From Acidobacteriaceae bacterium (lineage in GTDB: Bacteria; Acidobacteriota; Terriglobia; Terriglobales; Acidobacteriaceae): a stretch of 64,000 nucleotides of DNA. The notes beneath the pieces were generated by a model. That model saw nothing but the letters and a program-made list of their open reading frames with translations. It was not told the DNA's origin and searched no databases. Below are positions 3,620-59,693 of this stretch, one piece after another; position 1 is the stretch's first letter, and each line of letters begins with the position of its first letter. The stretch covers positions 1 through 64,000 of the forward strand of contig PKUV01000131.1 of NCBI GenBank assembly GCA_003131315.1, written 5' to 3'. Made by a program: the position numbers and the translations under genes.

Positions 3620-4102
3620 CTATGCGTGGACGTTAAGGCTGTGGCTTCCATAGACCAGCTCTAACACGGAGTTCGTGATGTCAGAGGTGCTGGAGGAAGA
3701 ACTACTCGAATTCACCGTGCTAAGCAGTTCCTGGACCAACTGCTCCGATTGGGATGCGACGTTTGTCTCGAGTGTCTGCGATGGCGAAGCAGCGTTTTTC
3801 AAGTCGCTCTGGACGGTCGCAAAAGCAGACTGGGCGCTGGATATATTTCCCGAGCTCAGCGCGCCACCGAGCGCTGTCAGATCGGTAGAGAGTTGAGAAC
3901 TGCTCGGCTGACTGTTTCCACTGGCGGTCGCCGAGAGTTGGCTTATCCTCTGCACGGTCTGGAATGCCGAGTTGGCGCCATTCAGGTCACGCGACGCAAG
4001 ACTGTTTTGCAGAGACTGCAATGCCTGCTGCAGCTGAGTGGAGTTGCTTGACGCGAGAACGTACTCACTGAGGCTTGCGGCCGAAATCGAACCAGTTGTC
4101 AT
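3620..4102 (-). CDS. Ser/Gln-rich protein with two internal repeats
   Basis: 160 residues. The start is set by AGGTGA six bases upstream of the ATG. No known fold is recognised. Two copies of a helical unit are visible: SLASRDLNGANSAFQTVQ and ALSSGNISSAQSAFATVQ, each roughly 38 residues apart and matching L-x-S-(R/G)-(D/N)-(L/I)-x-(G/S)-A-x-SAF-x-TVQ. A run of eight serines lies near residue 132. There is no evident signal peptide or membrane helix. Small proteins with such repeats occur in Acidobacteriota and Burkholderia (from memory); the function is unknown. Confidence 0.6.
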   Translation of the reverse strand: MTTGSISAASLSEYVLASSNSTQLQQALQSLQNSLASRDLNGANSAFQTVQRISQLSATASGNSQPSSSQLSTDLTALGGALSSGNISSAQSAFATVQSDLKNAASPSQTLETNVASQSEQLVQELLSTVNSSSSSSSTSDITNSVLELVYGSHSLNVHA

Positions 4103-4336: not shown

Positions 4337-4365
4337 TTGCAAACGCTCAAATCGTCAATTAAGCT
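4337..4365 (+). promoter_or_regulatory. Possible original tRNA-Leu promoter, now orphaned
   Basis: TTGCAA (4337-4342) and TAAGCT (4360-4365), 17 bases apart, lie about 28 bases before the tRNA 5' half at 4393. If real, this promoter now transcribes only the orphan half at attL. Confidence 0.3.
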
Positions 4366-4391: not shown

Positions 4392-4434
4392 AGCCGGGAT
4401 GGCGGAACTGGCAGACGCAGCGGACTCAAAATCC
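4392..4434. repeat. attL core, 43-bp direct repeat
   Basis: Exactly matches 30192-30234. It marks the left boundary of the integrated element and lies 133 bp before the integrase gene. Confidence 0.93.
4393..4434 (+). pseudogene. Orphan 5' half of tRNA-Leu(CAA) at attL
   Basis: Identical for 42 bases to the start of the intact tRNA at 30193. It covers the acceptor 5' strand, the D arm and the anticodon arm up to ATCC, then diverges into element sequence (TACAAACT). It has no variable arm, T arm or 3' end, so it cannot fold into a tRNA. Confidence 0.95.
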
Positions 4435-4510
4435 TACAAACTACCTCGATTAATACTCTATCTCACTGATATAGATAAACTTATTGACATAGTGCCCAAG
4501 AGGGCATACC

Positions 4511-4529
4511 TTACACATCTATTACACAT
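4511..4529 (+). promoter_or_regulatory. Candidate integrase arm-type sites, left end
   Basis: Two direct copies of TTACACAT (4511-4518 and 4522-4529) lie between attL and the integrase start. Similar TTGCACAK octamers lie beside attR (30110-30125). Arm-binding is inferred from position and symmetry only. Confidence 0.35.
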
Positions 4530-4567: not shown

Positions 4568-5866
4568 ATGCCAGAACAACACGCCATCCTTGGCGGCAAG
4601 GTTCACGTCTACAAGCGTCCAAACAGCAGCCTTTGGCAGTGTTCAAGCTATTTCGCGGGCAAAAATCGGCGGACCAGCACGAAGGAAGAGAGCCTCTCTA
4701 AGGCCAAGGAAATCGCGGAGGACTGGTACCTACAGCTTCGCGGAAAACTCCGTGGTGGCGAGATCAAGAGCGAAAAGACCTTTCGCGAGGTATCTGAACG
4801 CTACCTGCACGAGTACGACATCATCACCCAGGGACAACGCAACAAGCGATATGTGGAGGGCCAGCATTGGCGATCAAGCGTTCACTTGGTCCCCTTCTTC
4901 GGGAACCTGGGCGTTTCAGAGATCACCGCAGGAAAGATCCAGGAATACCGAATTCACAGACACCAAGAAGCAATTACGAAACGTGGCAAGCCGCCTGGTC
5001 ATAGCACTCTGCATCAAGAAATTGTGACGCTTCGCCAGACCCTAAAAACGGCGCTGCGCCACGGATGGCTCGACCGGCTCCCCGATTTCTCTGAACCGTA
5101 CCGGTCTTCCCCAAAAATCTCCCACAGGGCGTGGTTCTCACCAGAGGAATACAAGAGACTGTACGAAGCCACACGAAAGCGCGCGCACGAGCCAAAAAAG
5201 AAGGGCTTCACATGGGAAGCCGAACAACTTCACGACTATGTGCTCCTTGCAGTCAACACCGGACTGCGTCCTGACGAGGCATGGCGCCTTGAGTTCCGGG
5301 ATGTCACGATCGTTGACGACGAGGATTTGGGTAAGACGATCTTAGAGATTGAAGTGCGCGGCAAGCGCGGCGTCGGATATTGCAAGAGTATGCCCGGTGC
5401 AGTGAGGCCTTTTGAGCGACTTCGAAGCCGGCTACGCCCGGCGCGCATTTATGGCGTGAACACGCCCATAAAAACGTCCGTGACCTCTGCTGAACTTGGG
5501 GATCAATGGCGCATTCCGGGACCGACGGACCTTATTTTTCCGAAGTGGCAGCGCGAGCTTTTCAAAACCATCCTCGACGAACAAAATCTTCGCTTTGACC
5601 GCGAAGGACGCCCCCGTACGGCCTACAGTCTGCGGCATACATACATCTGCCTACGCCTCATGGAAGGTGCTGACATCTATCAAATCGCTAAGAACTGCCG
5701 CACTAGCGTGGAGATGATTGAGAAATACTACGCGGCGCACATCAAGACCTCGCTCGATGCCGCTGCGATCAACGTCATGCGGCCCAAGAAAAACAAGAAA
5801 GGAAAGAAAGCCATCCAGCCCACTCAGGCTTTACCGCAACCCCCGCAGCAGGAAACCGATGTGTAA
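4568..5866 (+). CDS. int: Tyrosine site-specific integrase of the element
   Basis: 432 residues. The start at the ATG at 4568 is preceded by GAGGAACGAAG. The N-terminal half is an arm/core-binding region; the C-terminal half holds the catalytic domain: Arg in NTGLRPDEAW (near residue 233), Lys in VRGKRG, the SLRHTY box (Arg near 356, His near 357) and the tyrosine nucleophile in MIEKYYAAH (near 387). The C-terminal 40 residues are Lys/Pro/Gln-rich. It should catalyse integration and excision at the 43-bp tRNA-Leu core; adjacency to attL is the usual arrangement. No excisionase gene was recognised. Confidence 0.95.
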   Translation: MPEQHAILGGKVHVYKRPNSSLWQCSSYFAGKNRRTSTKEESLSKAKEIAEDWYLQLRGKLRGGEIKSEKTFREVSERYLHEYDIITQGQRNKRYVEGQHWRSSVHLVPFFGNLGVSEITAGKIQEYRIHRHQEAITKRGKPPGHSTLHQEIVTLRQTLKTALRHGWLDRLPDFSEPYRSSPKISHRAWFSPEEYKRLYEATRKRAHEPKKKGFTWEAEQLHDYVLLAVNTGLRPDEAWRLEFRDVTIVDDEDLGKTILEIEVRGKRGVGYCKSMPGAVRPFERLRSRLRPARIYGVNTPIKTSVTSAELGDQWRIPGPTDLIFPKWQRELFKTILDEQNLRFDREGRPRTAYSLRHTYICLRLMEGADIYQIAKNCRTSVEMIEKYYAAHIKTSLDAAAINVMRPKKNKKGKKAIQPTQALPQPPQQETDV

Positions 5867-8577: not shown

Positions 8578-9174
8578 ATGAATACAAGAGCCGCTGCGGT
8601 ATTTGCATTTTCTCTTATGCTCGCTATGGCTTCTTGCGCGCAGAACAAGACCGTGACCGATAAGGAAACACGTGACCGTAAGGAAGCAAGCCTCCAACAA
8701 ACGTTCTTGGCCTTTGCCGCTGCTCACAACGCGGTGGCTGACTGGAAAACAGCGCTGCCTTACCAGTCGCTGGGAGGCGCGTACAGTATTCAATTGGGAG
8801 ATGTTCTAGTCCGACCAGACAAACGCCCAGTCGCGTTCAGAGCTTATTTGGACGATATAGTCCGACGCCGTGATCGAACTTATCTTGAATTGGAAGACGT
8901 AGACGAACCAGACGGCCTACATTTGACCTTGGAAGCTACTTCGGAAAACGTCCAACAGATTTTGAAGCAAGGGCCATCGAACTTCGATCAATACGCAGTG
9001 GTCGCGGAGATTTTGACGGTAGAGAGACCGGCCTTCCAGCTTTCAGCCGAAAATAATCCCGACGGCCCTGAAATACAGGTAAAAGCCTCGGACACATTCC
9101 ACGCCCAAGGACGTTGCCTCGACCTGGTATATCTTTCTGGACTCCGACACCCTCCTCAACCGGCCAGTCACTAG
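8578..9174 (+). CDS. Putative lipoprotein, unknown function
   Basis: 198 residues from the ATG at 8578; an upstream ATG at 8542 would add twelve polar residues ahead of the signal peptide and is less likely. The N-terminus MNTRAAAVFAFSLMLAMASC ends in a lipobox-like MASC, so the mature protein would begin with a lipidated Cys. The rest has no recognised domain. It follows the J-domain/Sel1 pair on the same strand with a gap of about 65 bases. Confidence 0.6.
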   Translation: MNTRAAAVFAFSLMLAMASCAQNKTVTDKETRDRKEASLQQTFLAFAAAHNAVADWKTALPYQSLGGAYSIQLGDVLVRPDKRPVAFRAYLDDIVRRRDRTYLELEDVDEPDGLHLTLEATSENVQQILKQGPSNFDQYAVVAEILTVERPAFQLSAENNPDGPEIQVKASDTFHAQGRCLDLVYLSGLRHPPQPASH

Positions 9175-9902: not shown

Positions 9903-10255
9903 GGCTGATTTCCTTTCTCCATGACCAATTGTAGCGATTTCCACGGCGTGGTCAAACACTCATCACAGGCCCCTAATATTGACCTGTCCCCTCCGTTTTC
10001 CCAGCTTCTCCGTCTTCGCTCAACCTGAACCAAACACCCTCCCATTCGGTGTTCTTGGCCGAAGTCGTCTTCCTTTCATTTTTTTCTCCACTCAACCCGC
10101 GCCTAACAAGACCGGCGTTATTCCAGCGGTGCTCCCTGTCAAGGGTCTGCGATGAACGCGATGAGGCCGCGCCCTTGACATGTCCGCGCCGCTGAACGCC
10201 TTCAGAACCGTCGCGGGTTTCGCGAAGAAAAAAATTGTTTTTGAAGGAGAATACG

Positions 10256-11173
10256 ATGCAAGACACCACCGAAAGAAAAGACGTTTACAGCCGTATCACC
10301 GCGCAGATCGTCGAACATTTAGAAAAGGGCGTCCGCCCGTGGATACGCCCCTGGAATGCCGAACACGCCGCCGGAAGGATTACACGTCCACTGCGTCACA
10401 ACGGCCAGCCCTACTCCGGTATCAATATCCTGTCTCTCTGGATGTCCGCTCTAGGCCAGAGTTTCACAGCACCAATCTGGATGACCTTCCGCCAAGCCAG
10501 CGAGTTAAACGCCCATGTCAGAAAAGGCGAGAAAGGCTCGATTGTGGTCTATGCCAACGCCATCACCCGCACCGAGCATGACGACAAGACCGGCGAGGAT
10601 ACAGAGCGCGAAATCCCCTACATGAAAGGCTATACGGTTTTCAACGTCGAACAGATCGAAGGCTTGCCGGAAATCTACTACGCGAAAGCAACGCCGACGC
10701 GTGATCCCGTGGCGCGCATTGACCATGCCGAGAAGTTTTTCACCAGCATGGGAGCAACGATCAAACATGGCGGAAATCGCGCCTATTACGCGCAGGAGTT
10801 GGATTACGTGCAGATGCCGCCCTTTGAAGCCTTCCGCGATGCTGAGAGCTACTACGCCACTCTTGCTCACGAAGTCACACATTGGACGAAGCATCCGCAG
10901 CGCCTCGACCGCGACTTTGGCCGCAAGCAATGGGGCGATGAAGGTTACAGCCGCGAGGAGCTTGTTGCCGAGCTTGGCTCCGCTTTCCTGTGCGCCGACC
11001 TCGAATTGCATCAGGAGCCGCGCGAAGAGAACGCCGCCTATATTGCGATATGGCTGGAAGTCCTCAAGAACGACAACCGCGCCATTTTCACGGCAGCCGC
11101 CCATGCCCAACGAGCCGCCGATTACCTCAACCAGAAAGCCGCCGTGCAGGTCTCTGAGACCTGCGCGGCCTGA
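10256..11173 (+). CDS. ardC: ArdC-like antirestriction protein
   Basis: 305 residues from the ATG at 10256, with AAGGAG seven bases before it; a TTG at 10235 is less likely. The N-terminal domain (about 1-120, RPWIRPWNAEHAAG...PYSGINILSLW) is the ssDNA-binding DUF1738/ArdC domain. The C-terminal domain carries a zincin motif HEVTH (residues 205-209) with a downstream Glu in ELVAELGSAF. ArdC proteins carried by conjugative plasmids protect incoming DNA from restriction and bind single strands; this fits an element that moves as ssDNA. Confidence 0.92.
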   Translation: MQDTTERKDVYSRITAQIVEHLEKGVRPWIRPWNAEHAAGRITRPLRHNGQPYSGINILSLWMSALGQSFTAPIWMTFRQASELNAHVRKGEKGSIVVYANAITRTEHDDKTGEDTEREIPYMKGYTVFNVEQIEGLPEIYYAKATPTRDPVARIDHAEKFFTSMGATIKHGGNRAYYAQELDYVQMPPFEAFRDAESYYATLAHEVTHWTKHPQRLDRDFGRKQWGDEGYSREELVAELGSAFLCADLELHQEPREENAAYIAIWLEVLKNDNRAIFTAAAHAQRAADYLNQKAAVQVSETCAA

Positions 11174-21251: not shown

Positions 21252-22226
21252 TCATAGTTCTGTCAGGAACTTTATCAGAGCCGGATTGCGGCGCCATTTT
21301 CTGCTACCGCGCTCCGGGCTCAATTTGTTGAGCTGAGCACGGAAGCGTTCCGGGCTCAGCGTGAGATAACGATCACTTGATCCCAGTCCATGTCGTCCCA
21401 TGTACACAGAGAGAGCCGGGAGCATCCGGTTTAGGTCCGCGCCGTGCTTAATCCATCCGTCTATCCGGTGAACTGCAAATGTATGTCTGAGATCATGTAA
21501 ACGAGGACGGCTGGCTACACCGTCCCGGCGCGTAACGCCCGACACTTCTCGGAGGCGTCGAAATGTGGTCTCCGCGGCGTATTCGGTGAGAGCCTCCCCA
21601 TTCCTGTTAAGGAACAGGAACGGGGCTCTCGCGGAATCTTTCGGGTAATTCGTCGCATGGTATCTGCGTAGCACGTTGTATAGGTCCGAGCACATCGGAA
21701 TGGTTCTCGAACGGTACGGTCGCGAGTTGCGGATTGTTATGGTCCGTCTCCTGAAATCCAAATCGTCACGCCGCAACGTTAGGGCATCACTCAACAGTGC
21801 CCCGGTCCCATAGAGAAACAGGATGAGTACCCGCACGGTGCGAACATCGATCTTGCAATTCGAGTTCTTCTGGCTGATCCGAATCATCGACAACAGACGA
21901 CGGATCTCAGCGCGAGAGTAGATGTACGGCAGAAATGGAGATTCGACAGGCGGCCTTCGTAATGGCAACGGCAAGGCGGAAATTGCATTTCGTGCCAACC
22001 AAAAAAGGAAGAAGCTACGGAGATACTTGTATTTGTTTTGCCATGTGGTTTCTGATGTTGCCGGCCCATCGAGAAAGGCTGCCACTTGGCCCTCCCTTAT
22101 GGTGTCCAGCGGTATATCCCCAGTGTAGCGGCAGAAAGCGCTCAGTGTTTGAATGCCATTCGGGTAAACAGCCCCATAAGTTCTTCTTCCCTCAACATAG
22201 GCGTCGACCCCTTCGAGCAATTTCAT
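21252..22226 (-). CDS. Tyrosine recombinase lacking a catalytic Arg
   Basis: 324 residues. The fold is clearly phage-integrase type: a SAM-like N-terminal part, then a catalytic domain with LHDLRHTFAVHR (about 243-253) and a C-terminal MGRHGLGSSDRYLTL (Tyr287). However, the first catalytic Arg is missing: the usual GTGLR-x-SE reads GTGALLSDAL, with Leu144 at the Arg position, and no clear beta-strand Lys is seen. It may act only as a partner of the complete recombinase encoded immediately upstream, whose end it overlaps by four bases. Alternatively it is decaying. Confidence 0.85.
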   Translation of the reverse strand: MKLLEGVDAYVEGRRTYGAVYPNGIQTLSAFCRYTGDIPLDTIREGQVAAFLDGPATSETTWQNKYKYLRSFFLFWLARNAISALPLPLRRPPVESPFLPYIYSRAEIRRLLSMIRISQKNSNCKIDVRTVRVLILFLYGTGALLSDALTLRRDDLDFRRRTITIRNSRPYRSRTIPMCSDLYNVLRRYHATNYPKDSARAPFLFLNRNGEALTEYAAETTFRRLREVSGVTRRDGVASRPRLHDLRHTFAVHRIDGWIKHGADLNRMLPALSVYMGRHGLGSSDRYLTLSPERFRAQLNKLSPERGSRKWRRNPALIKFLTEL

Positions 22227-23467
22227 AGGACACCAGCCATGCTGAACGAAGCTACTTTCCGGAGACTCCTGGTGTCTAATCTTGCGTAAATACTCACTGT
22301 CTTAAGGTTCCGGTGCCCGAGAAAATCGGCAATCTCTCGAAGCGACGTTCCTTTCTTCAGCAAACGGGTTGCGCAGGCATGACGGAGGGAGTGAGGGCCG
22401 AGTTGCTCTGGCCTGATCCCCAATGCTGACATTCTTGTGCTGACGAGCTGGTGCATTGGGCCGGGGCGAATTCGTCCGTGCGGGACTGGCGCGGTAACGA
22501 AAACATAATCGGTTGCCGACCGCGGTCGACCGTGTTGTAGGTAACGGATGATCGCCTCCCCGACTTCATACTGGATTGGGAACTGCTGAATTCCGCCGCG
22601 CTTTGCGCGGTGCACGGTAAACGTCTCACCGTACCAGTCGAAATCACTGAATCGGAGTTGCGCTACCTCACTGCTTCGTAGACCGTAAACCGCAAATAGA
22701 AGGAGAATGGCTTTGGCGCGGAGGTCGCTAGGAGAAGATCCGCTGGCAGAAGCTATGAGTCTTCTCACCTCCGTCCACTTTGGCCCTTTTGGTCGATTGT
22801 CAGATCTACGATTTTTCGGGCTTTGAATGCCCAGTGCTATGCCCGGAGCACACCACCCTCGAAGCGCGGCATAGCTGAAGAAACTCCGCAATGTCTGGGA
22901 GTTCGAGGCGACAGTACTTACTGACCACCCCTCACGCCGCTTACTCGCGAAGAATTCGTCAATGTGGCGCAACGAAACCGAGTTGAGACTCTGGTATTGA
23001 TCGCCAAACCACCTCAGAAACCTGAGTGTCCTATAGCAGAGAGCGTCAACAGTGGGCGAGGATAGTCCCCGAATCCGCATCGCTTCAGCAAACTCTTCAA
23101 TTAGGGGCTGAAAAGGACTTGGAGGCAGAGTAGGCAGCTGGCCGTGAAATCGCAACCAACTTTGAGCAGTGCGAACGAACATGAAAGGTGCGCCTGGCCG
23201 TCTCAGTTTCTTTCGCAGCGGGCCCTCATATGCTGCCCACTCACGCCCTGCCGCTTCAATCTCGTTCAGTTCGATTCTGCGGAGCGCAGTCATTCTTAGA
23301 AGGCGGACTATGTGAATCAGGTACGCCGCGGTCGATCGTACAACGATTCGGCTGACGCCCCGTTTGAGCATCGTTGTGAGGTATTGCTCCCGCTCTCGAA
23401 GCAACGGAGCGGCTTCGTGTCGAGCGTGCACACTTGGCCATAACGATATTTCGTCGAAGAGATTCAT
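22223..23467 (-). CDS. Tyrosine recombinase (XerC/D-like), complete
   Basis: 414 residues with all catalytic residues visible: Arg264 (YGLRSSEVAQL), Lys289 (HRAKRGG), His359 and Arg362 (HSLRHACATRLL), His385 (LGHRNLKTV) and Tyr394 (VSIYARL). The N-terminal core-binding domain is longer than in XerC. It heads a two-gene operon with the degenerate recombinase 21252-22226. Tandem tyrosine recombinase genes are typical of recombinase-in-trio and related elements; here only two members are present. They may be an older insertion inside the IME. Confidence 0.92.
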   Translation of the reverse strand: MNLFDEISLWPSVHARHEAAPLLREREQYLTTMLKRGVSRIVVRSTAAYLIHIVRLLRMTALRRIELNEIEAAGREWAAYEGPLRKKLRRPGAPFMFVRTAQSWLRFHGQLPTLPPSPFQPLIEEFAEAMRIRGLSSPTVDALCYRTLRFLRWFGDQYQSLNSVSLRHIDEFFASKRREGWSVSTVASNSQTLRSFFSYAALRGWCAPGIALGIQSPKNRRSDNRPKGPKWTEVRRLIASASGSSPSDLRAKAILLLFAVYGLRSSEVAQLRFSDFDWYGETFTVHRAKRGGIQQFPIQYEVGEAIIRYLQHGRPRSATDYVFVTAPVPHGRIRPGPMHQLVSTRMSALGIRPEQLGPHSLRHACATRLLKKGTSLREIADFLGHRNLKTVSIYARLDTRSLRKVASFSMAGVL

Positions 23468-24314: not shown

Positions 24315-26249
24315 ATGAGTGAGTTGCTGGGTCGTGGTGAGTCTCGGCCTTGGGCGACGAAGTGGCCGGTGTCGAGTCTGGGAGCTTTCCTGCTTGCGGT
24401 CGTGGCGGGCATAGGAATCTTCACGTACCGCAACGTCGAGAGGTGGACGCCGTTGCAGCAATGGTACTGGGTCGAATATCTGAACACGAAAAGCTTCCCG
24501 ACGGCGCGCGGCGACTACCGGATGCTGGCGAAAGTGGACGGGCACGGGAAGCAGCGCATGGCGGTCGATGCCGATGTGGTGCCCGGTCCGCAGCAGGGAT
24601 GGCCCCCGTTTCCGTTCGCGCTGACGCCACAGGCGCGGCAGGCGGGAGCGGTCGCGCTGAAGGTGGACACGGTGCATTACGGCAGCGCGCAAATGAACCA
24701 GATGCTCTCGGAGTGGATTTACGAGGGCCAGACGCCCGACGACCTGATCCGGCCCGCGTGGCTTGGCGCGCTGGCCATCTTCGTGCTCGGTCTGGTGCTG
24801 GCGATCCCGCGCGACCGTGCGCGGGTGCGGATGCTGCAACACGGGCGACGGTTGAAAGGCCCGCAGATGGTCACGGTGAAGGAATTTAACCAGTGGAGCG
24901 GTGGGAGCGGCATCGGCTTTGCGACCACGAAGCGAAAACAAACGCTCTCGATTCCGCGCGCGTTCGAGTCGAGCCATGTGATGATCATGGGCGACACGGG
25001 CACGGGAAAAAGCATCCTGCAGCGGCGGGTGCTCATGCAGATTGCCGAGCGCAATGAATCGGCCATCGTGTACGATCCGGCGCTCGAATACACGCCGCAG
25101 TTTTTTAATCCCGCGCGTGGCGATCTGATCCTGAATCCCCTGGACGTGCGCTGCCCCTACCGGTCGCCGTGCGATGAAGTGATCCATGAGGCCGAGGCGC
25201 TGACGATTGCAACGTCGCTCTTTCCCGACAAGCCGCACGAGAATACGTTTTTCGTCGAAGGTCCGCGAAAAATCTTCGCGCACTTGCTGACGCTGAGGCC
25301 GACACCGGAGCAGTTGGTTTGGTGGATGAGTCACGAGGACGAGTTAGACCACAAGCTGAAGGGTACGGAACTGGCGACGTTCATCTATCGCGGCGCAGGC
25401 CCGCAGCGCGGCGGCGTGCTGGGCGCGCTCAACATGGTTGCGGACAGCTTGAAACTCTTGCCGAAGGAGAGCGAGACGAAGCAGCGCTGGACGACCGAGG
25501 AATGGGCGCGGCAGAAGAGCGGCTGGTTGTTTCTGACTTCGATTCCGCGCTTTCGCGAGCGGCTGTTGCCGCTCATGAGCTTGTGGCTGGACACGCTGGT
25601 GCTGCGCTTGATGAACCAGGGCGATCCGGCGATGCGTCACGCGTGGTTCGTGCTGGACGAGTTGGCGAGTTTGCAAAAACTGCCGCAGTTGCACACGGCG
25701 CTGACGGAGAACCGCAAATCGGGAAATCCGGTGGTGATCGGCTTTCAGGGCCGCAGCCAGCTGGAGCTGATTTACGGGCATCAGGCGGAAGCGATGCTCT
25801 CGCAACCCGCAACGAAAATCTTTTTGCATACGAGCGAGCCGCGCGCGTCGAAGTGGATCTCGGACACGATCGGCGAAGTGGAAATGGAGCGGATGAAAGA
25901 GACGGTAAATACCGGGCGGTTCTTCCGCAGCGCGAGATCGAGGAGCTATCATGCGGACCGCCGCGTCGAGCCGCTGGTGCTGGCGTCGGAGATCAGTGGC
26001 CTTCCGCGTTTGAACGCCTTGCTCAAGGTGGACAATCTGGTCGTGCCGTTCAGCTTTCCGTATCTCGCACCGCAGAAACTACAACCGGGTTTCATCCCGC
26101 GCGAGACCACATCGCGCGTGGTCGATATCGGAAAACGGCCGTCAAAGCCGAGCGCGCCGCCAGCGCAAGAGATCAGGCCGGGCATTCCAGAGAAAGCAGC
26201 GGAGAAATCGAAAGACATCGCCGCCGGACAAGAACCGTACTTCCAGTGA
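24315..26249 (+). CDS. Type IV coupling ATPase (TraD/TrwB-like)
   Basis: 644 residues. Two membrane helices lie near residues 18-38 and 135-153. A cytoplasmic RecA-like ATPase follows, with Walker A GDTGTGKS (about 226-233) and Walker B HAWFVLDEL (about 437-445). The later stretch SQPATKIFLHTSEPRASKWI is typical of coupling proteins. It would dock the relaxase-DNA complex to a type IV secretion channel and pump ssDNA. It is 7 bases upstream of the relaxase gene. No channel genes occur in the element. Confidence 0.92.
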   Translation: MSELLGRGESRPWATKWPVSSLGAFLLAVVAGIGIFTYRNVERWTPLQQWYWVEYLNTKSFPTARGDYRMLAKVDGHGKQRMAVDADVVPGPQQGWPPFPFALTPQARQAGAVALKVDTVHYGSAQMNQMLSEWIYEGQTPDDLIRPAWLGALAIFVLGLVLAIPRDRARVRMLQHGRRLKGPQMVTVKEFNQWSGGSGIGFATTKRKQTLSIPRAFESSHVMIMGDTGTGKSILQRRVLMQIAERNESAIVYDPALEYTPQFFNPARGDLILNPLDVRCPYRSPCDEVIHEAEALTIATSLFPDKPHENTFFVEGPRKIFAHLLTLRPTPEQLVWWMSHEDELDHKLKGTELATFIYRGAGPQRGGVLGALNMVADSLKLLPKESETKQRWTTEEWARQKSGWLFLTSIPRFRERLLPLMSLWLDTLVLRLMNQGDPAMRHAWFVLDELASLQKLPQLHTALTENRKSGNPVVIGFQGRSQLELIYGHQAEAMLSQPATKIFLHTSEPRASKWISDTIGEVEMERMKETVNTGRFFRSARSRSYHADRRVEPLVLASEISGLPRLNALLKVDNLVVPFSFPYLAPQKLQPGFIPRETTSRVVDIGKRPSKPSAPPAQEIRPGIPEKAAEKSKDIAAGQEPYFQ

Positions 26250-26256
26250 GTGAATC

Positions 26257-29040
26257 ATGCTGACGATATCGAAACCGCTGAGTGCAGGCCAGGCGCAGGC
26301 GTATCACAAAGAGGAGTTCGCCAACGCGCAGGAGAATTATTACTCCGAAGGCGAGCGGATACGCGGCGAGTGGCACGGCAAACTTGCCGAGGAGTGGGGC
26401 TTGCGCGGTGACGTGCAAGAGGATCACTTTGTGCGTCTCGCTAACGGCCAGCATCCGATGACGGGCGAGCAACTGGTGCGCTATCAGGCCGCGCGGGAAT
26501 ACGTGAACGAGCGCGGCGAAACCGTGAGCACGATGGAGCATCGCGCGGGCTGGGATGCCACGTTCTCCGCGCCCAAGAGCGTGAGTTTAACCGCACTCGT
26601 TGGCGGTGACGAGCACGTGCGCGAGGCACACCGCGAGAGCGTGAAGGTTGCCCTTAATGAACTCGAAAAGTACGTGCAGGCGCGGATCGGCGGGAACCAT
26701 CCGGCAGAGACGACGGGCAAATGGGTTACAGCCAGCTTCGAGCACGACAGCGCGCGGCCCGTGGACGGCTACGCGGCGCCGCAACTGCACACGCATGTCG
26801 TGTTCTTCAATCTGACGGAAACCGAAAACGGCGAGACGCGCTCGCTGCAACCGCGCGAGCTGTACCGCTCGCAGCAGTACGCTACCGCGATCTATCGCTC
26901 GGAACTGGCACTGCGCTTGAAGGATCACGGTTACGAGATCGAGACGGGTAAGAGCGGGCAGCCGGAGATCAGAGGGTACACGCGGGAATATCTGGAGGCA
27001 TCGAGTCCGCGCCGTCAGCAAATCCAGGAACATCTCGCGGAGCAAGGCGTGAGAGGCGCAGGCGCGGCACAGATCGCGGCGCACCAGACGCGCGACGACA
27101 AGCTGCCTGCGATCACGCACGAAGAGATGCAGCAGAAGCACCGGGAAATGGCGGCGCAGTTCGACCAGCAACCGGAGCGCGTAATGCGCGAGGCCCAGGC
27201 CCGCCAGGTGGAACAACAAAACCCGGAGCACAAGCAGCAGAGCATCGAATCCGCGTTGACCTACGCGCGAGAGAAAAATCTGGAGCGCCACGCGGTGACC
27301 GATGAACGCGAACTCATGCGCGATGCACTGAAACGTTCAATGGGCGAGGCCAGCTTCGCCGAAGTTCGAAACAAGTTTGAAAATCGCGTGCAATCGGGAG
27401 ACTTGATCGAGGTAGAAAGCAGATCGCTGAGCCGCGCGTTCACGACGGAAGAAATGATCGGCTACGAGCGGAGCAACATCGCTGCGATGCGAGCGGGACA
27501 GAACCAACATGAACCGCTGGTGAGTACGGAAACATGGCGTGAGGTCCAAGAGAAATACGCACATCTCAGCACCAGCCAACGCGCGGCGGTTGAGCAGATC
27601 GTATCGACCCAGGACAAGATCATGGGGCTAGAGGGTGTGGCAGGCGCGGGTAAAACGACTTCGCTAGCTGCTGTCCACGAGGCCGCCGAACAGGAAGGCT
27701 ACGAAGTTCGTGGGCTTGCGCCTACGTCCCGCGCGGCGCACAAGCTGGCAGAATCGGGCATCGAGTCGGAGACTTTGCAGCGGCATCTTCGCCGCGAGGA
27801 GCAGTCCGACGAGGGACAGAAGCGGCTTTATGTGCTTGACGAATCGAGCTTGGCAAGCACAAAACAGATGAACGAGTTCTTGCATCGTTTGCACGGCGAG
27901 GACCGCGTGCTACTCGTGGGCGACAAGCGCCAGCATGAAGCCGTCGAAGCGGGCAGACCATACCATCAGCTACAACAGGCAGGGATGCAAACCGCGCGTC
28001 TGGATGAAATCGTGCGGCAGAGGGACCCGGCACTCAAGGAAGCCGTGGAACAGCTTGCCCGCGGTGACGTGTTCGGAGCGATTGACAATCTCGACCAACA
28101 GGGCCGCGTGCATGATATCGTGGGTCGCCAAGAACGACTTAGCGAAATTGCGCGCGAGTACGCGCGAGAACCGCAAGGCACACTCGTGATCTCGCCGGAC
28201 AACGAATCGCGCCGCGAGCTGAATGCGCTCATCCATCGCGAAATGCAGGAACACGGCGAGGTGAGCCAAAACGAGTACAAGCTACGCGTGCTCGACTCGC
28301 GCCAGGACATGACGGGAGCCGATCGGAAATGGGCCGCACAATATGAGGAAGGTGATGTAGTGCGCTACACGCGAGGCAGCAAGGTGCTGGGTATCGAACC
28401 CGGTGAATACGCCCGCGTGGAGCAGGTGAACGTGACGGAAAATCGCGTCACCATCGAGCGCGAAAACGGCGAGCATCAGACCTACGATCCGCGCCGACTG
28501 GCAGGCGTGGCGGTGTATCACGACACCGAGCGCGCGTTCTCGGAAGGCGACCGCGTGCAGTTCACAGCCCCGTCAAGGGACTTGCACGTTGCGAATCGCG
28601 AGCTGGGCACTGTCGAGAAAATCAACGGCGCTGGCGACGTGCAACTCCGCATGGACTCAGGCCGCGACGTGGCCTTCAATATCCGCGAGCATCCGCATCT
28701 CGATCACGGGTACGCAGTGACCAGCCACAGCAGCCAGGGCCAGACCGCCGAGCGCGTGCTGATCCACGTGGACACGGAGCTAGGCGAGCAACTGGTGAAT
28801 AGCCGCATGGCTTACGTGTCCGTCTCGCGCGGGCAATATGACGCCCAAATCTACACCAATAACAGAAGCGAATTGGCGAGCGATCTGAGCCGCGACGTGT
28901 CGCAGCGTACGGCGATTCAGACTCAGGAGCCGGAACCTATAGCGCAGAAGAGCGAGCCAGTGGCCACCAACCACGAGCAACAGCACGACCAGGCGCACGG
29001 CATCGGCCACGAGATTGGCATGCAAATGCCGTTACCTTAG
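26257..29040 (+). CDS. MOBF relaxase-helicase (TrwC/TraI-like)
   Basis: 927 residues. The N-terminal relaxase domain has adjacent tyrosines Tyr28-Tyr29 (ENYYSEGERIRGEWHGK), the FSAPKSVSL motif (about 103-111), and a histidine triad His163, His178, His180 (PQLHTHVVF) spaced as in TrwC. The C-terminal part is a RecD-like helicase: Walker A GVAGAGKTT (about 460) and LYVLDESSL (Walker B), ending with HSSQGQTAERVLIHVD. It nicks oriT and unwinds the strand for transfer. The protein appears complete and intact. Confidence 0.95.
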   Translation: MLTISKPLSAGQAQAYHKEEFANAQENYYSEGERIRGEWHGKLAEEWGLRGDVQEDHFVRLANGQHPMTGEQLVRYQAAREYVNERGETVSTMEHRAGWDATFSAPKSVSLTALVGGDEHVREAHRESVKVALNELEKYVQARIGGNHPAETTGKWVTASFEHDSARPVDGYAAPQLHTHVVFFNLTETENGETRSLQPRELYRSQQYATAIYRSELALRLKDHGYEIETGKSGQPEIRGYTREYLEASSPRRQQIQEHLAEQGVRGAGAAQIAAHQTRDDKLPAITHEEMQQKHREMAAQFDQQPERVMREAQARQVEQQNPEHKQQSIESALTYAREKNLERHAVTDERELMRDALKRSMGEASFAEVRNKFENRVQSGDLIEVESRSLSRAFTTEEMIGYERSNIAAMRAGQNQHEPLVSTETWREVQEKYAHLSTSQRAAVEQIVSTQDKIMGLEGVAGAGKTTSLAAVHEAAEQEGYEVRGLAPTSRAAHKLAESGIESETLQRHLRREEQSDEGQKRLYVLDESSLASTKQMNEFLHRLHGEDRVLLVGDKRQHEAVEAGRPYHQLQQAGMQTARLDEIVRQRDPALKEAVEQLARGDVFGAIDNLDQQGRVHDIVGRQERLSEIAREYAREPQGTLVISPDNESRRELNALIHREMQEHGEVSQNEYKLRVLDSRQDMTGADRKWAAQYEEGDVVRYTRGSKVLGIEPGEYARVEQVNVTENRVTIERENGEHQTYDPRRLAGVAVYHDTERAFSEGDRVQFTAPSRDLHVANRELGTVEKINGAGDVQLRMDSGRDVAFNIREHPHLDHGYAVTSHSSQGQTAERVLIHVDTELGEQLVNSRMAYVSVSRGQYDAQIYTNNRSELASDLSRDVSQRTAIQTQEPEPIAQKSEPVATNHEQQHDQAHGIGHEIGMQMPLP

Positions 29041-30075: not shown

Positions 30076-30125
30076 AACTGTGCAAATCCCCGAATACTTT
30101 CACACTTTCTTGCACAGTTGCACAT
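30076..30125. promoter_or_regulatory. Candidate integrase arm-type sites, right end
   Basis: AACTGTGCAA (30076-30085) and its exact inverted copy TTGCACAGTT (30110-30119), immediately followed by TTGCACAT (30118-30125). The octamer TTRCACAK recurs twice beside attL (4511-4529). Inferred from symmetry and position. Confidence 0.4.
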
Positions 30126-30168
30126 TCGTTGTGGTGAGCTACAAACGAACATAGTAGAGTATATATTG

Positions 30169-30174
30169 TATAAT
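30169..30174 (+). promoter_or_regulatory. -10 box for tRNA-Leu, supplied by the element
   Basis: Perfect TATAAT 18 bases before the tRNA 5' end. No convincing -35 hexamer is visible at the right distance. As everything left of 30192 belongs to the element, the intact tRNA is expressed from element DNA. Confidence 0.5.
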
Positions 30175-30191
30175 CAAGCACTTCCCACCTA

Positions 30192-30234
30192 AGCCGGGAT
30201 GGCGGAACTGGCAGACGCAGCGGACTCAAAATCC
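30192..30234. repeat. attR core, 43-bp direct repeat
   Basis: Identical to 4392-4434; sequence to its right (GCCGGGCTTCGG...) continues the tRNA into chromosomal DNA. Confidence 0.93.
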
Positions 30235-30279
30235 GCCGGGCTTCGGCCCTTGGGGGTTCGACTCCCCCTCCCGGCACCA
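30193..30279 (+). tRNA. tRNA-Leu(CAA), complete, CCA encoded
   Basis: 87 bases including an encoded CCA. The acceptor stem GCCGGGA pairs with TCCCGGC. The anticodon stem GCGGA/TCCGC closes a loop CTCAAAA with anticodon CAA (codon UUG). The long variable arm (GGGCTTCGGCCC) is typical of a class II leucine tRNA, and the T arm GGGGGTTCGACTCCCCC is normal. The 5' half comes from the element and the 3' half from the chromosome. Confidence 0.97.
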
Positions 30280-30710
30280 ACCCTTAAGTCTGTGTCGCGT
30301 GATGGTTTACGAATCCTCGTGGTCCCGCCGTGCAGACGGCCGGAAATCTCCACAGAATCCGCAACGTGATGTAAACGTGATGTGATGCCGGAGCTCTCGG
30401 AGGAACTCGCCGGCCTTTCGCGTTGATGCGCGCTGTGCTGTGAGCCAACGTTGCTGTCTACCCGGTCACGCATGCTCAACGCCACATAAGTTCGGAGACA
30501 ACATAATCTGCGTTATGTTCGGCCCAACATAACGCCGACTATATCCAGCTCTGGCATGGAGACGCCGGTCTTCCGCGCGAGAGTTTGGAAGCTGTCCGCT
30601 TAACCAACACAAAACCCTAACTCAAGAACAACGGTGCAGGTCGTCATGCCCGACGTGTGACGCCACACCCAACCACGACAAAGAACCACAAAATGAATAG
30701 GAGAATGGAC
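30280..30710. other. Scarred junction right of the tRNA
   Basis: No gene. It contains a palindrome with arms GCGTTATGTT (30510-30519) and AACATAACGC (30526-30535), and partial copies of the same motif nearby (ACATAAGTTCGG at about 30484, AACATAA at about 30500). It precedes a truncated ParB-like gene. Confidence 0.5.
30510..30535. repeat. 10-bp inverted repeat cluster
   Basis: Perfect arms GCGTTATGTT / AACATAACGC around CGGCCC. Possibly a recombination or protein-binding site of a lost element. Confidence 0.5.
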
Positions 30711-30848
30711 ATGCAAAACACTGCCATCAGTAACGAATATCGAAGCCTTCCCATCGGCGTATTGTTGGAGTCCGCCACCAACCCGCGCAAGCGATTCGAT
30801 GAAAAGAACCTCGAAGAACTTGCTGCCAGCATGAGAGCGCCAGTGTGA
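30711..30848 (+). pseudogene. Truncated ParB-like gene (N-terminal scrap)
   Basis: 45 codons from an ATG with AGGAG upstream. The product has the start of a ParB/Spo0J-type domain: SLPIGVLLESATNPRKRFDE, then LEELAASM. Full relatives continue with a GVLxPLxVRP block; here the frame reaches a stop (APV*) instead. The rest of the gene is absent, so this is a remnant, probably of a plasmid-like or integrated element. Confidence 0.7.
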
Positions 30849-57995: not shown

Positions 57996-58330
57996 ATTTC
58001 AGCGTAAACTGGCCTACCTTTGTGGCAGTGGCCGCACTCAACATCAGTGAACTCGCAGCGTTAACGCCACTCCGCAAGAGATTCAGAGTCTAACTCGGAA
58101 CTAATGCTCCCTCTATCGCTAGACTGAAACCGGGAAGTGTAAGCGACAAGCCTCGAAGACACGTTGGACCACCTAAATCCACATTGCAAACGTCGGGATG
58201 CGTCGAAGGCTGCACTGGAACCCGCATGGCGAGGGACGACGTCAATTCGGAGAAATTGTCCCAGGAGTGTTCACTCCCGTGCTCGCAAAACACTCGAAGT
58301 CGTTCTCGCTCGTGGACTGCCGTTCGCATC

Positions 58331-58388
58331 GGACCCAAAATCCGCCGGGCTTCGTCCCTTGGGGGTTCGACTCCCCCTCCCGGCGCCA
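58331..58388 (+). pseudogene. Relic 3' half of tRNA-Leu
   Basis: 58 bases match positions 30222-30279 of the intact tRNA-Leu at 55 places: the rest of the anticodon arm, variable arm, T arm, acceptor 3' strand and CCA. The 5' half is absent (upstream sequence is unrelated). Differences are one in the anticodon loop, one in the variable arm and one at the discriminator base. Confidence 0.9.
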
Positions 58389-58469: not shown

Positions 58470-59693
58470 TTACTTATTCTCGTTGAGCGATCCGGCTCCA
58501 AACTCCTTGCGTTGTATCACCGGACGCGCCGCTCTTGCTGCCGCTACTGCCGGCATGGCCGCCGCCGCTCCGTAACGCTCGAGCAGCACGGGCACCATCG
58601 CGCCTTCGGCTTCTTTCACAAAGGTGAGCTTGCTTTCGCCCAGCAGATCGACGCGGACGAAATCTCCCAGCTTCACCTGTCCAGTCGCCACCAGGTTCGC
58701 CAGCGGAAACACCAGATGCCGTTCAATCGCCCGCTTCAGGTGCCGCGCCCCGTACTTCGGATCGGTGCCCTCCGCCAGCAGGAAGCTCTTCACCTGCGGC
58801 GTACAGTTGAACACGAACTGGTGCGCGCCCGCCGCCATCAGGACCCGCTGCTGCACCATCCCCAGTTCGATTTCCAGAATCTGCCGCAGGTGCTCGGGAC
58901 GCAGCGTCTTGAACACCACGACTTTGTCGATGCGGTTCATGAACTCGGGCGCAAACTTGCGCCGCGCCGCATCCACTGCCGAGCGGTTAATCTTTTCGTC
59001 GAGCGAGTTATCCACCTGCACCGGTTTCGGCGCGAAGCCCAAACCGCCATCCACCAACCCGTTCATCTCGGCGGAGCCCAGGTTCGAGGTCATGATGATG
59101 ATGCAACTCGAAAGATCCACGCGCCGGTTATCGCCCAGCGTCAGCGTCGCCTTGTCCAGGATTCCGAGCAGCAGTTGCCACAGCGAGTCGGAAGCCTTTT
59201 CGATTTCGTCGAACAGCAGGATCGACAGCTTCAGCTTTTCCGTGTGCCACTGGTTGAGCGCTTCCTGTGTCAGCAGCGGGTGCGTCTCGCGGTGTCCCAG
59301 GTATCCCGGAGGCGAGCCGATCAACTTGGCAATCTCGTGCGAGTGCTGGAACTCGGCGCAATCGATCTTGATGCAGGCCCGCGCGTCGCCGAACAGCGAC
59401 TCGGCCACCGCTTCCACCACCCTCGTCTTGCCCGAGCCGGTCGGCCCCAGGAACAGTAGATTGCCCACGGGACGGCTCGGCGCATTCAGCCCGGCCAGAA
59501 ACATCTGATAGATTTCCGCGACCTTTTCGATCGCCTGGTCCTGGCCGACAATCTTCCGGCGCAGGGCGGTCTCAAAGTCACGAGCGTCGTTGCTGCGGCG
59601 GCTGGGATCAAGCACGGTTGCAAGGTTCGTTCTCATCGTTTCGGGCCCTTGTTTCCTTTCCGGGAACTGCATCTTTTCTGGGAAATTGCTCAT
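58470..59693 (-). CDS. ClpB-D2-like AAA+ ATPase, single module
   Basis: 407 residues from the ATG at 59693, or 388 from the ATG at 59636 (MRTNLATVL). One AAA_2 module: Walker A GPTGSGKT, Walker B LLFDEIEKA and arginine-finger region FAPEFMNRIDKVVVF, then a ClpB-type C-terminal small domain. The N-terminal domain, first AAA module and ClpP-binding loop of ClpA/ClpX are absent. It resembles the second half of ClpB/ClpA as a stand-alone protein; it might remodel a specific partner. The C-terminal 40 residues are Ala-rich. No evident partner lies nearby. Confidence 0.88.
   Translation of the reverse strand: MSNFPEKMQFPERKQGPETMRTNLATVLDPSRRSNDARDFETALRRKIVGQDQAIEKVAEIYQMFLAGLNAPSRPVGNLLFLGPTGSGKTRVVEAVAESLFGDARACIKIDCAEFQHSHEIAKLIGSPPGYLGHRETHPLLTQEALNQWHTEKLKLSILLFDEIEKASDSLWQLLLGILDKATLTLGDNRRVDLSSCIIIMTSNLGSAEMNGLVDGGLGFAPKPVQVDNSLDEKINRSAVDAARRKFAPEFMNRIDKVVVFKTLRPEHLRQILEIELGMVQQRVLMAAGAHQFVFNCTPQVKSFLLAEGTDPKYGARHLKRAIERHLVFPLANLVATGQVKLGDFVRVDLLGESKLTFVKEAEGAMVPVLLERYGAAAAMPAVAAARAARPVIQRKEFGAGSLNENK

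Follow-up and report, generated by a model that had tools for sequence, protein, structure and literature searches.

Where do the promoter and the two halves of an intact tRNA gene come from, when part of that gene lies duplicated some 26 kb away beside an integrase gene?

The split tRNA-Leu(CAA) gene and its native promoter

We analysed a stretch of 64,000 nucleotides (the window), part of a 70.6-kb contig in a 6.0-Mb draft genome of an Acidobacteriaceae bacterium (194 contigs, 99.7% complete). Its only tRNA gene, according to ARAGORN and Rfam, is an intact tRNA-Leu(CAA) at 30193-30279 on the plus strand, 100% identical to the native tRNA-Leu genes of two relatives, G003 and G007. In a whole-genome search, nucleotides 1-42 of this gene recurred without mismatch at 4393-4434 on the plus strand (42/42, E 3.5e-15), with the match ending directly after nt 42. 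The first-pass annotation had described this duplication, the intact copy and a perfect TATAAT 18 bases ahead of it, all of which we could confirm, and had missed a third piece, nt 24-87 with 94% identity, at 58325-58388. It had also named a second identical tRNA-Leu(CAA) elsewhere as an observation that would speak against its reading; our search of the 99.7%-complete draft returned only one intact copy, a count in which a collapsed repeat is possible given the 194 contigs.

The DNA to the left of the 5′ fragment has kept the surroundings of a native tRNA gene. The motif TTGCAA-17-TAAGCT, at 4337-4365 on the plus strand, now stands ahead of the fragment only, and alignments place it before the intact tRNA-Leu(CAA) in G003, G004, G007, G015, G017 and G020, and before a tRNA 5′ fragment in G022. 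The comparison with relatives that the first-pass annotation had proposed thus recovered the native promoter motif at their intact genes; a strict sigma-70 consensus scan called no full promoter at the native site. Moreover, G020 keeps the order ABC transporter, hemW, intact tRNA-Leu(CAA), and a homolog of the small gene at 3620-4102 immediately precedes the intact tRNA in G007 and G017. Because neighbours and promoter motif are shared with the intact genes of relatives, the 4393 fragment is the native 5′ half with its native promoter, and we take it as attL. The intact gene at 30193 lies 25.8 kb away from that promoter. As a separate observation, hemW (1589-2962) contains, at residues ~367-394, an in-frame segment (CHPERSEGP...) also present on other contigs of this genome and in G004; it resembles a dispersed repeat that has entered the coding sequence.

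Element B and the candidate promoter at its right end

The interval between the two copies is occupied by a 25.8-kb integrase/TraD/TrwC element, which we call element B (4435-30192, or to about 30226). Its tyrosine integrase of 432 aa (int432; 4568-5866, plus strand; PHROG integrase, E 1.6e-29) is an intact reading frame that starts 175 bp beyond the start of the tRNA fragment, preceded by a likely promoter, TTGACA-17 bp-TACCTT (4484-4512, plus strand), whose layout is the same in the G004 and G020 homologs. Further along the plus strand are an ArdC-like antirestriction gene (10235-11173; Pfam ArdcN and MPTase-PolyVal), a TrwB/TraD coupling protein gene (24315-26249; Pfam TrwB_AAD_bind, E 7e-73) and a TrwC relaxase-helicase gene (26257-29040; Pfam TrwC, E 3e-86), so that the element looks mobilizable. 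It also holds, on the minus strand at 21252-23467, two adjacent tyrosine recombinase genes (Pfam Phage_integrase), apparently unrelated to the island's own integrase.

The right end of element B can be placed with the help of its integrase family. In family elements with both ends known, the motif TTACACATTTTCTTGCACAG lies shortly before the tRNA junction, and the family right-end motif TTTCACACTTTCTTGCACAG has a single match in the window, at 30098-30117 on the plus strand (2 mismatches, 0 expected by chance). Since this match stands just before the intact tRNA, position 30193 is the attR of int432's element, with nt 1-42 of the intact gene as its core. The same right end is homologous to the sequences that precede tRNA-Leu in G011 and G012. 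Across these three diverged right ends a −10 element keeps its place 18 nt before the tRNA, reading TATAAT in the window (30169-30174), TAGAAT in G011 and TAAAAT in G012. The resulting candidate promoter, CGAACA-17 bp-TATAAT (30146-30174, plus strand), thus pairs a −10 of conserved position with a weak −35, as the hexamer at the best spacing, CGAACA (30146-30151), is a poor one; the strict sigma-70 consensus scan found no full promoter ahead of the intact tRNA gene. Taken together, the native half left at 4393, the right-end motif and the conserved −10 indicate that both the promoter candidate and the 5′ half of the intact gene were supplied by the element, in agreement with what the first-pass annotation had claimed for the 5′ half and the upstream DNA. 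That the element must provide a promoter would follow from the anatomy of the intact gene. In G011, only ~200 bp of the right end are left, beside a TonB-receptor gene, as if the promoter had remained as the scar of a lost island.

A probable older island to the right of the tRNA

The right flank of the intact gene belongs to another integrase. Directly beside the tRNA, on the minus strand at 30189-30485, we found the remnant C-terminus of a tyrosine integrase, whose reading direction is toward the tRNA and through it. This remnant matches (74% identity over 90 aa, E 5e-26) a complete 461-aa tyrosine integrase of G011, which likewise runs toward and through the tRNA gene and of which the window retains the C-terminus only; at the DNA level, 30280-30461 is 81% identical to the C-terminal end of that G011 gene. 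The third tRNA piece (58325-58388, plus strand) lies ~28 kb to the right of the tRNA, where it adjoins a conserved terminator and a Clp-type AAA+ ATPase gene (58470-59693, minus strand; Pfam AAA_2 and ClpB_D2-small), which makes up the native right flank. Among relatives, the region of the ATPase gene is conserved up to its terminator and variable beyond, and the gene is found ~33, 45 and 64 kb downstream of tRNA-Leu(CAA) in G012, G006 and G015, respectively.

From these two ends we infer that 30280-58324 is an older, decayed island of the 3′-restoring kind (island A), whose Pfam-annotated cargo is mostly concerned with carbohydrate metabolism and which fits the classical class by its integrase remnant and its displaced 3′ half. 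The first-pass annotation had assigned the 3′ half of the intact gene to the chromosome. This is probably wrong, as the island A remnant abuts the tRNA and a native 3′ half has been displaced to 58325; the 3′ half in use more probably came from island A. If A replaced the 3′ half earlier and B supplied the promoter and the 5′ half, the working gene would probably be an assembly of two islands. Within island A, a truncated ParB-like reading frame (30533-30848, weak ParB_N match) carries a dispersed repeat; further copies occur in four relatives and, on contig 89 of G000 (the genome that contains the window), ahead of an intact ParB-like gene.

A model for the locus and its alternatives

We consider it likely that element B recombined within the anticodon loop of the tRNA-Leu(CAA) gene and rebuilt that gene with its own promoter and 5′ half, probably after an earlier arrival of island A. 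According to this model, the 3′ half had probably been exchanged beforehand by A, an island of the usual 3′-restoring type, with the native one displaced to 58325. The attP of B would have carried a promoter together with the complete 5′ half of the tRNA just inside what is now the right end. Crossover, presumably in the anticodon loop, would then have left the native gene's promoter and 5′ half stranded at attL, where they precede int432, and given rise at attR to a complete gene with a promoter and 5′ half from the element; excision would yield an intact gene behind the native promoter. The sequence itself gives the positions, the identities, the native flanks and promoter, the right-end motif, the homologous right ends and the integrase remnant of A; the exact crossover, the order of events, the role of A as donor of the 3′ half and transcription from the element's −10 are what we infer. 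Since both tRNA flanks in G011 are shared with the window, islands A and B may not be independent events.

Three other accounts of the locus have to be weighed against this model. A single element of 54 kb (4435-58324) could have split the native gene, leaving its halves at 4393 and 58325 and carrying the intact tRNA at 30193 as an internal spare, and relatives of int432 do carry intact spare tRNA-Leu genes. However, the family right-end motif is found before 30193 and not before 58325, which led us to reject this account; moreover, the intact copy matches the native genes of G003 and G007 at 100% identity, whereas the spares of relatives differ from the native gene, and a remnant from another integrase family begins directly after the tRNA. 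We regard this arrangement as very improbable. A tandem second element of the int432 family starting at 30280 was also considered and rejected, as that position holds the A-type remnant and no such integrase. Doubtful, yet with more in its favour, is the proposal that the intact tRNA has kept its native 3′ half, with the piece at 58325 left over from an older, unrelated insertion. In this tRNA, nt 43-87 do not differ from the native gene of G003 and G007. The proposal has to contend with an A-type integrase remnant that abuts the 3′ half, and with a piece at 58325 that adjoins a gene syntenic with tRNA-Leu in three relatives.

The last alternative concerns transcription. The TATAAT could be a chance AT-rich match in an arm region bound by the integrase, with the tRNA transcribed by read-through from within the element. 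This would account for the weak −35 and the negative consensus scan, and co-transcription is suggested by a second integrase family (see below) whose gene, on the same strand as tRNA-Leu, stops 28-70 bp short of it. Nevertheless, we think it unlikely, considering that the −10 keeps its position in the three diverged right ends, and that the nearest well-supported gene on the plus strand, the relaxase gene, ends at 29040, 1.15 kb before the tRNA.

The int432 family in other genomes

To place element B among its relatives, we scanned one genome per species for int432 homologs and obtained 80 homologous loci, with L175, which is the same contig as G004:C97, counted once. The counts that follow rest on a 20-base D-arm pattern with up to 5 mismatches, in genomes that are mostly drafts. 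The named relatives reached through int432 are mostly Acidobacteriota, and the loci span several phyla. Upstream of the int432 homolog, 62 of the 80 loci have the 5′ half of a tRNA-Leu that breaks off near nt 40, within the anticodon arm. Its distance from the integrase start is 153-198 bp in most of them and 243 and 264 bp in two; the 175 bp seen in the window fall within the typical range. Three family members depart from this pattern and lie, as classical islands do, behind an intact tRNA-Arg, -Met or -Phe.

What compensates for the split gene varies within the family. An intact replacement tRNA-Leu directly follows the integrase gene in 44 of the 80 loci, and others lie near the right end; L184 is an entire 5-kb example with the split native gene and a spare. 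Right ends rebuild nt 30-87 only in G044, G047, G048, G049 and G050, nt 15-87 or 17-87 in G041, G042, G043 and G046, and nt 10-89 in G057, so that no intact native copy is left at these sites. These relatives possess instead a whole tRNA-Leu that differs from the native one; it immediately follows the integrase or sits just within the right end. Spares that follow the integrase often contain a group I intron (Rfam RF00028 in L105, L182 and L205). The three introns, at 1234-1437 in L105 (G004), 11255-11473 in L182 and 11293-11508 in L205, lie in the anticodon loop of tRNA-Leu(UAA); intron-bearing tRNA-Leu(UAA) genes after the integrase occur in Acidobacteriota and Pseudomonadota, and similar sequences are present in many loci.

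An intact spare tRNA-Leu, a trait that is common in the family and not universal, is absent from the window's element: a search for a lost spare or a group I intron after its integrase gave nothing. The element instead rebuilds nt 1-87 and brings a promoter candidate. The nearest relative of int432, L189 in G057 (82% identity), has an intron-bearing spare and the right end that rebuilds nt 10-89. Plausibly, the right ends took up progressively longer parts of the tRNA, until a spare was no longer needed. Rebuilding of nt 1-87 was not seen among family members outside this genus, which counts against our preferred model. In the literature we could search, which leaves out most subscription journals, we found no paper on islands that split tRNA-Leu and carry a spare or a group I intron-bearing tRNA-Leu.

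A second integrase family at tRNA-Leu genes

A different integrase family is also associated with tRNA-Leu in these genomes. Contig 41 of G057 bears a CAA 5′ fragment and, 11.6 kb away, a complete tRNA-Leu(CAA) gene, with an integrase gene on the same strand terminating 31 bp ahead of the latter. The same layout, integrase gene and then tRNA-Leu, is present in G022 (CAA), in G014 (UAA) and in the genome that contains the window, whose intact tRNA-Leu(UAA) on contig 50 (3597-3685, L276) follows an integrase gene by 27 bp on the same strand. A 39-base 5′ fragment of tRNA-Leu(UAA) lies on contig 65 of this same genome, G000 (8993-9031, L275), 300 bp before a XerD-like integrase gene. With the UAA gene just after an integrase gene and the CAA gene behind element B, both tRNA-Leu(CAA) and tRNA-Leu(UAA) of this genome thus sit behind island DNA. 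In G001, G002, G009 and G013, short TGCGATACT stretches before tRNA-Leu(CAA) resemble the last codons of the second-family integrase of G022 and may be scars of lost islands.

Comparison with known systems

The closest parallel to element B comes from archaea. The archaeal element pTN3 shares 41 bp with its target, corresponding to the 5′ half of tRNA-Leu, and integration reconstitutes the full gene away from its promoter (PMC5495485). Like pTN3-like elements, element B uses the 5′ half of tRNA-Leu as its attachment site (42 bp common to attL and attR) and separates the rebuilt tRNA from its original promoter, here the one at 4337-4365. Unlike pTN3, whose integration splits the integrase gene, element B keeps its 432-aa frame intact, and it also differs in its bacterial host, its integrase sequence and its conjugation-type genes. 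Given the unsplit integrase gene, element B appears to work like pTN3 without being a member of that group. A 2021 review describes integration into the 5′ half of tRNA genes as unique in archaea and as rarely encountered among bacteria (PMC8371274).

In classical tRNA islands the 3′ part is restored and the native promoter is left in place (PMC8371274), as is generally known. With such islands, for example PAI II-536 at leuX (PMC3202238), element B shares a tRNA-Leu target, a site-specific integrase and a duplicated tRNA segment at its ends; in contrast to them, it restores the 5′ half together with a promoter. Element B also has its crossover region in the anticodon stem-loop in common with tRNA integrases of the anticodon-loop class (Williams 2002, cited in PMC8371274), although that class nearly always retains the original promoter.

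Consequences for the host

When attL and attR were joined in silico, a full tRNA-Leu was regenerated behind the native promoter, and the corresponding circle of B carried the promoter candidate, the 5′ half and the integrase. The first-pass annotation had suggested that the host would depend on the element for this leucine tRNA, unless excision restores the original gene. The proviso holds in the in silico join, and dependence is thus possible but weak: precise excision rebuilds the gene, and a separate tRNA-Leu(UAA) is present in the same genome. tRNA-Leu(UAA) may read UUG by wobble. As in silico excision restores an intact gene, precise loss of B would be harmless, and only imprecise loss would break the gene.

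For the lineage as a whole, we see roughly even chances that tRNA-Leu has been repeatedly rebuilt by mobile elements from both sides, with the int432 family supplying either a spare tRNA-Leu, with or without an intron, or a promoter and a 5′ half, and with the new promoter at times persisting as a scar. Islands that target tRNA genes are usually regarded as harmless, since the 3′ end is restored and the native promoter is spared. Annotation tools that look for 3′ fragments only would miss islands of the kind described here. In this locus, and in a wide integrase family, the island appears to take over the promoter and the 5′ half or to replace the whole tRNA gene, and such islands would thereby provide the cell with a leucine tRNA, which would bear on the expression of the tRNA and on what happens when an island is lost imprecisely.
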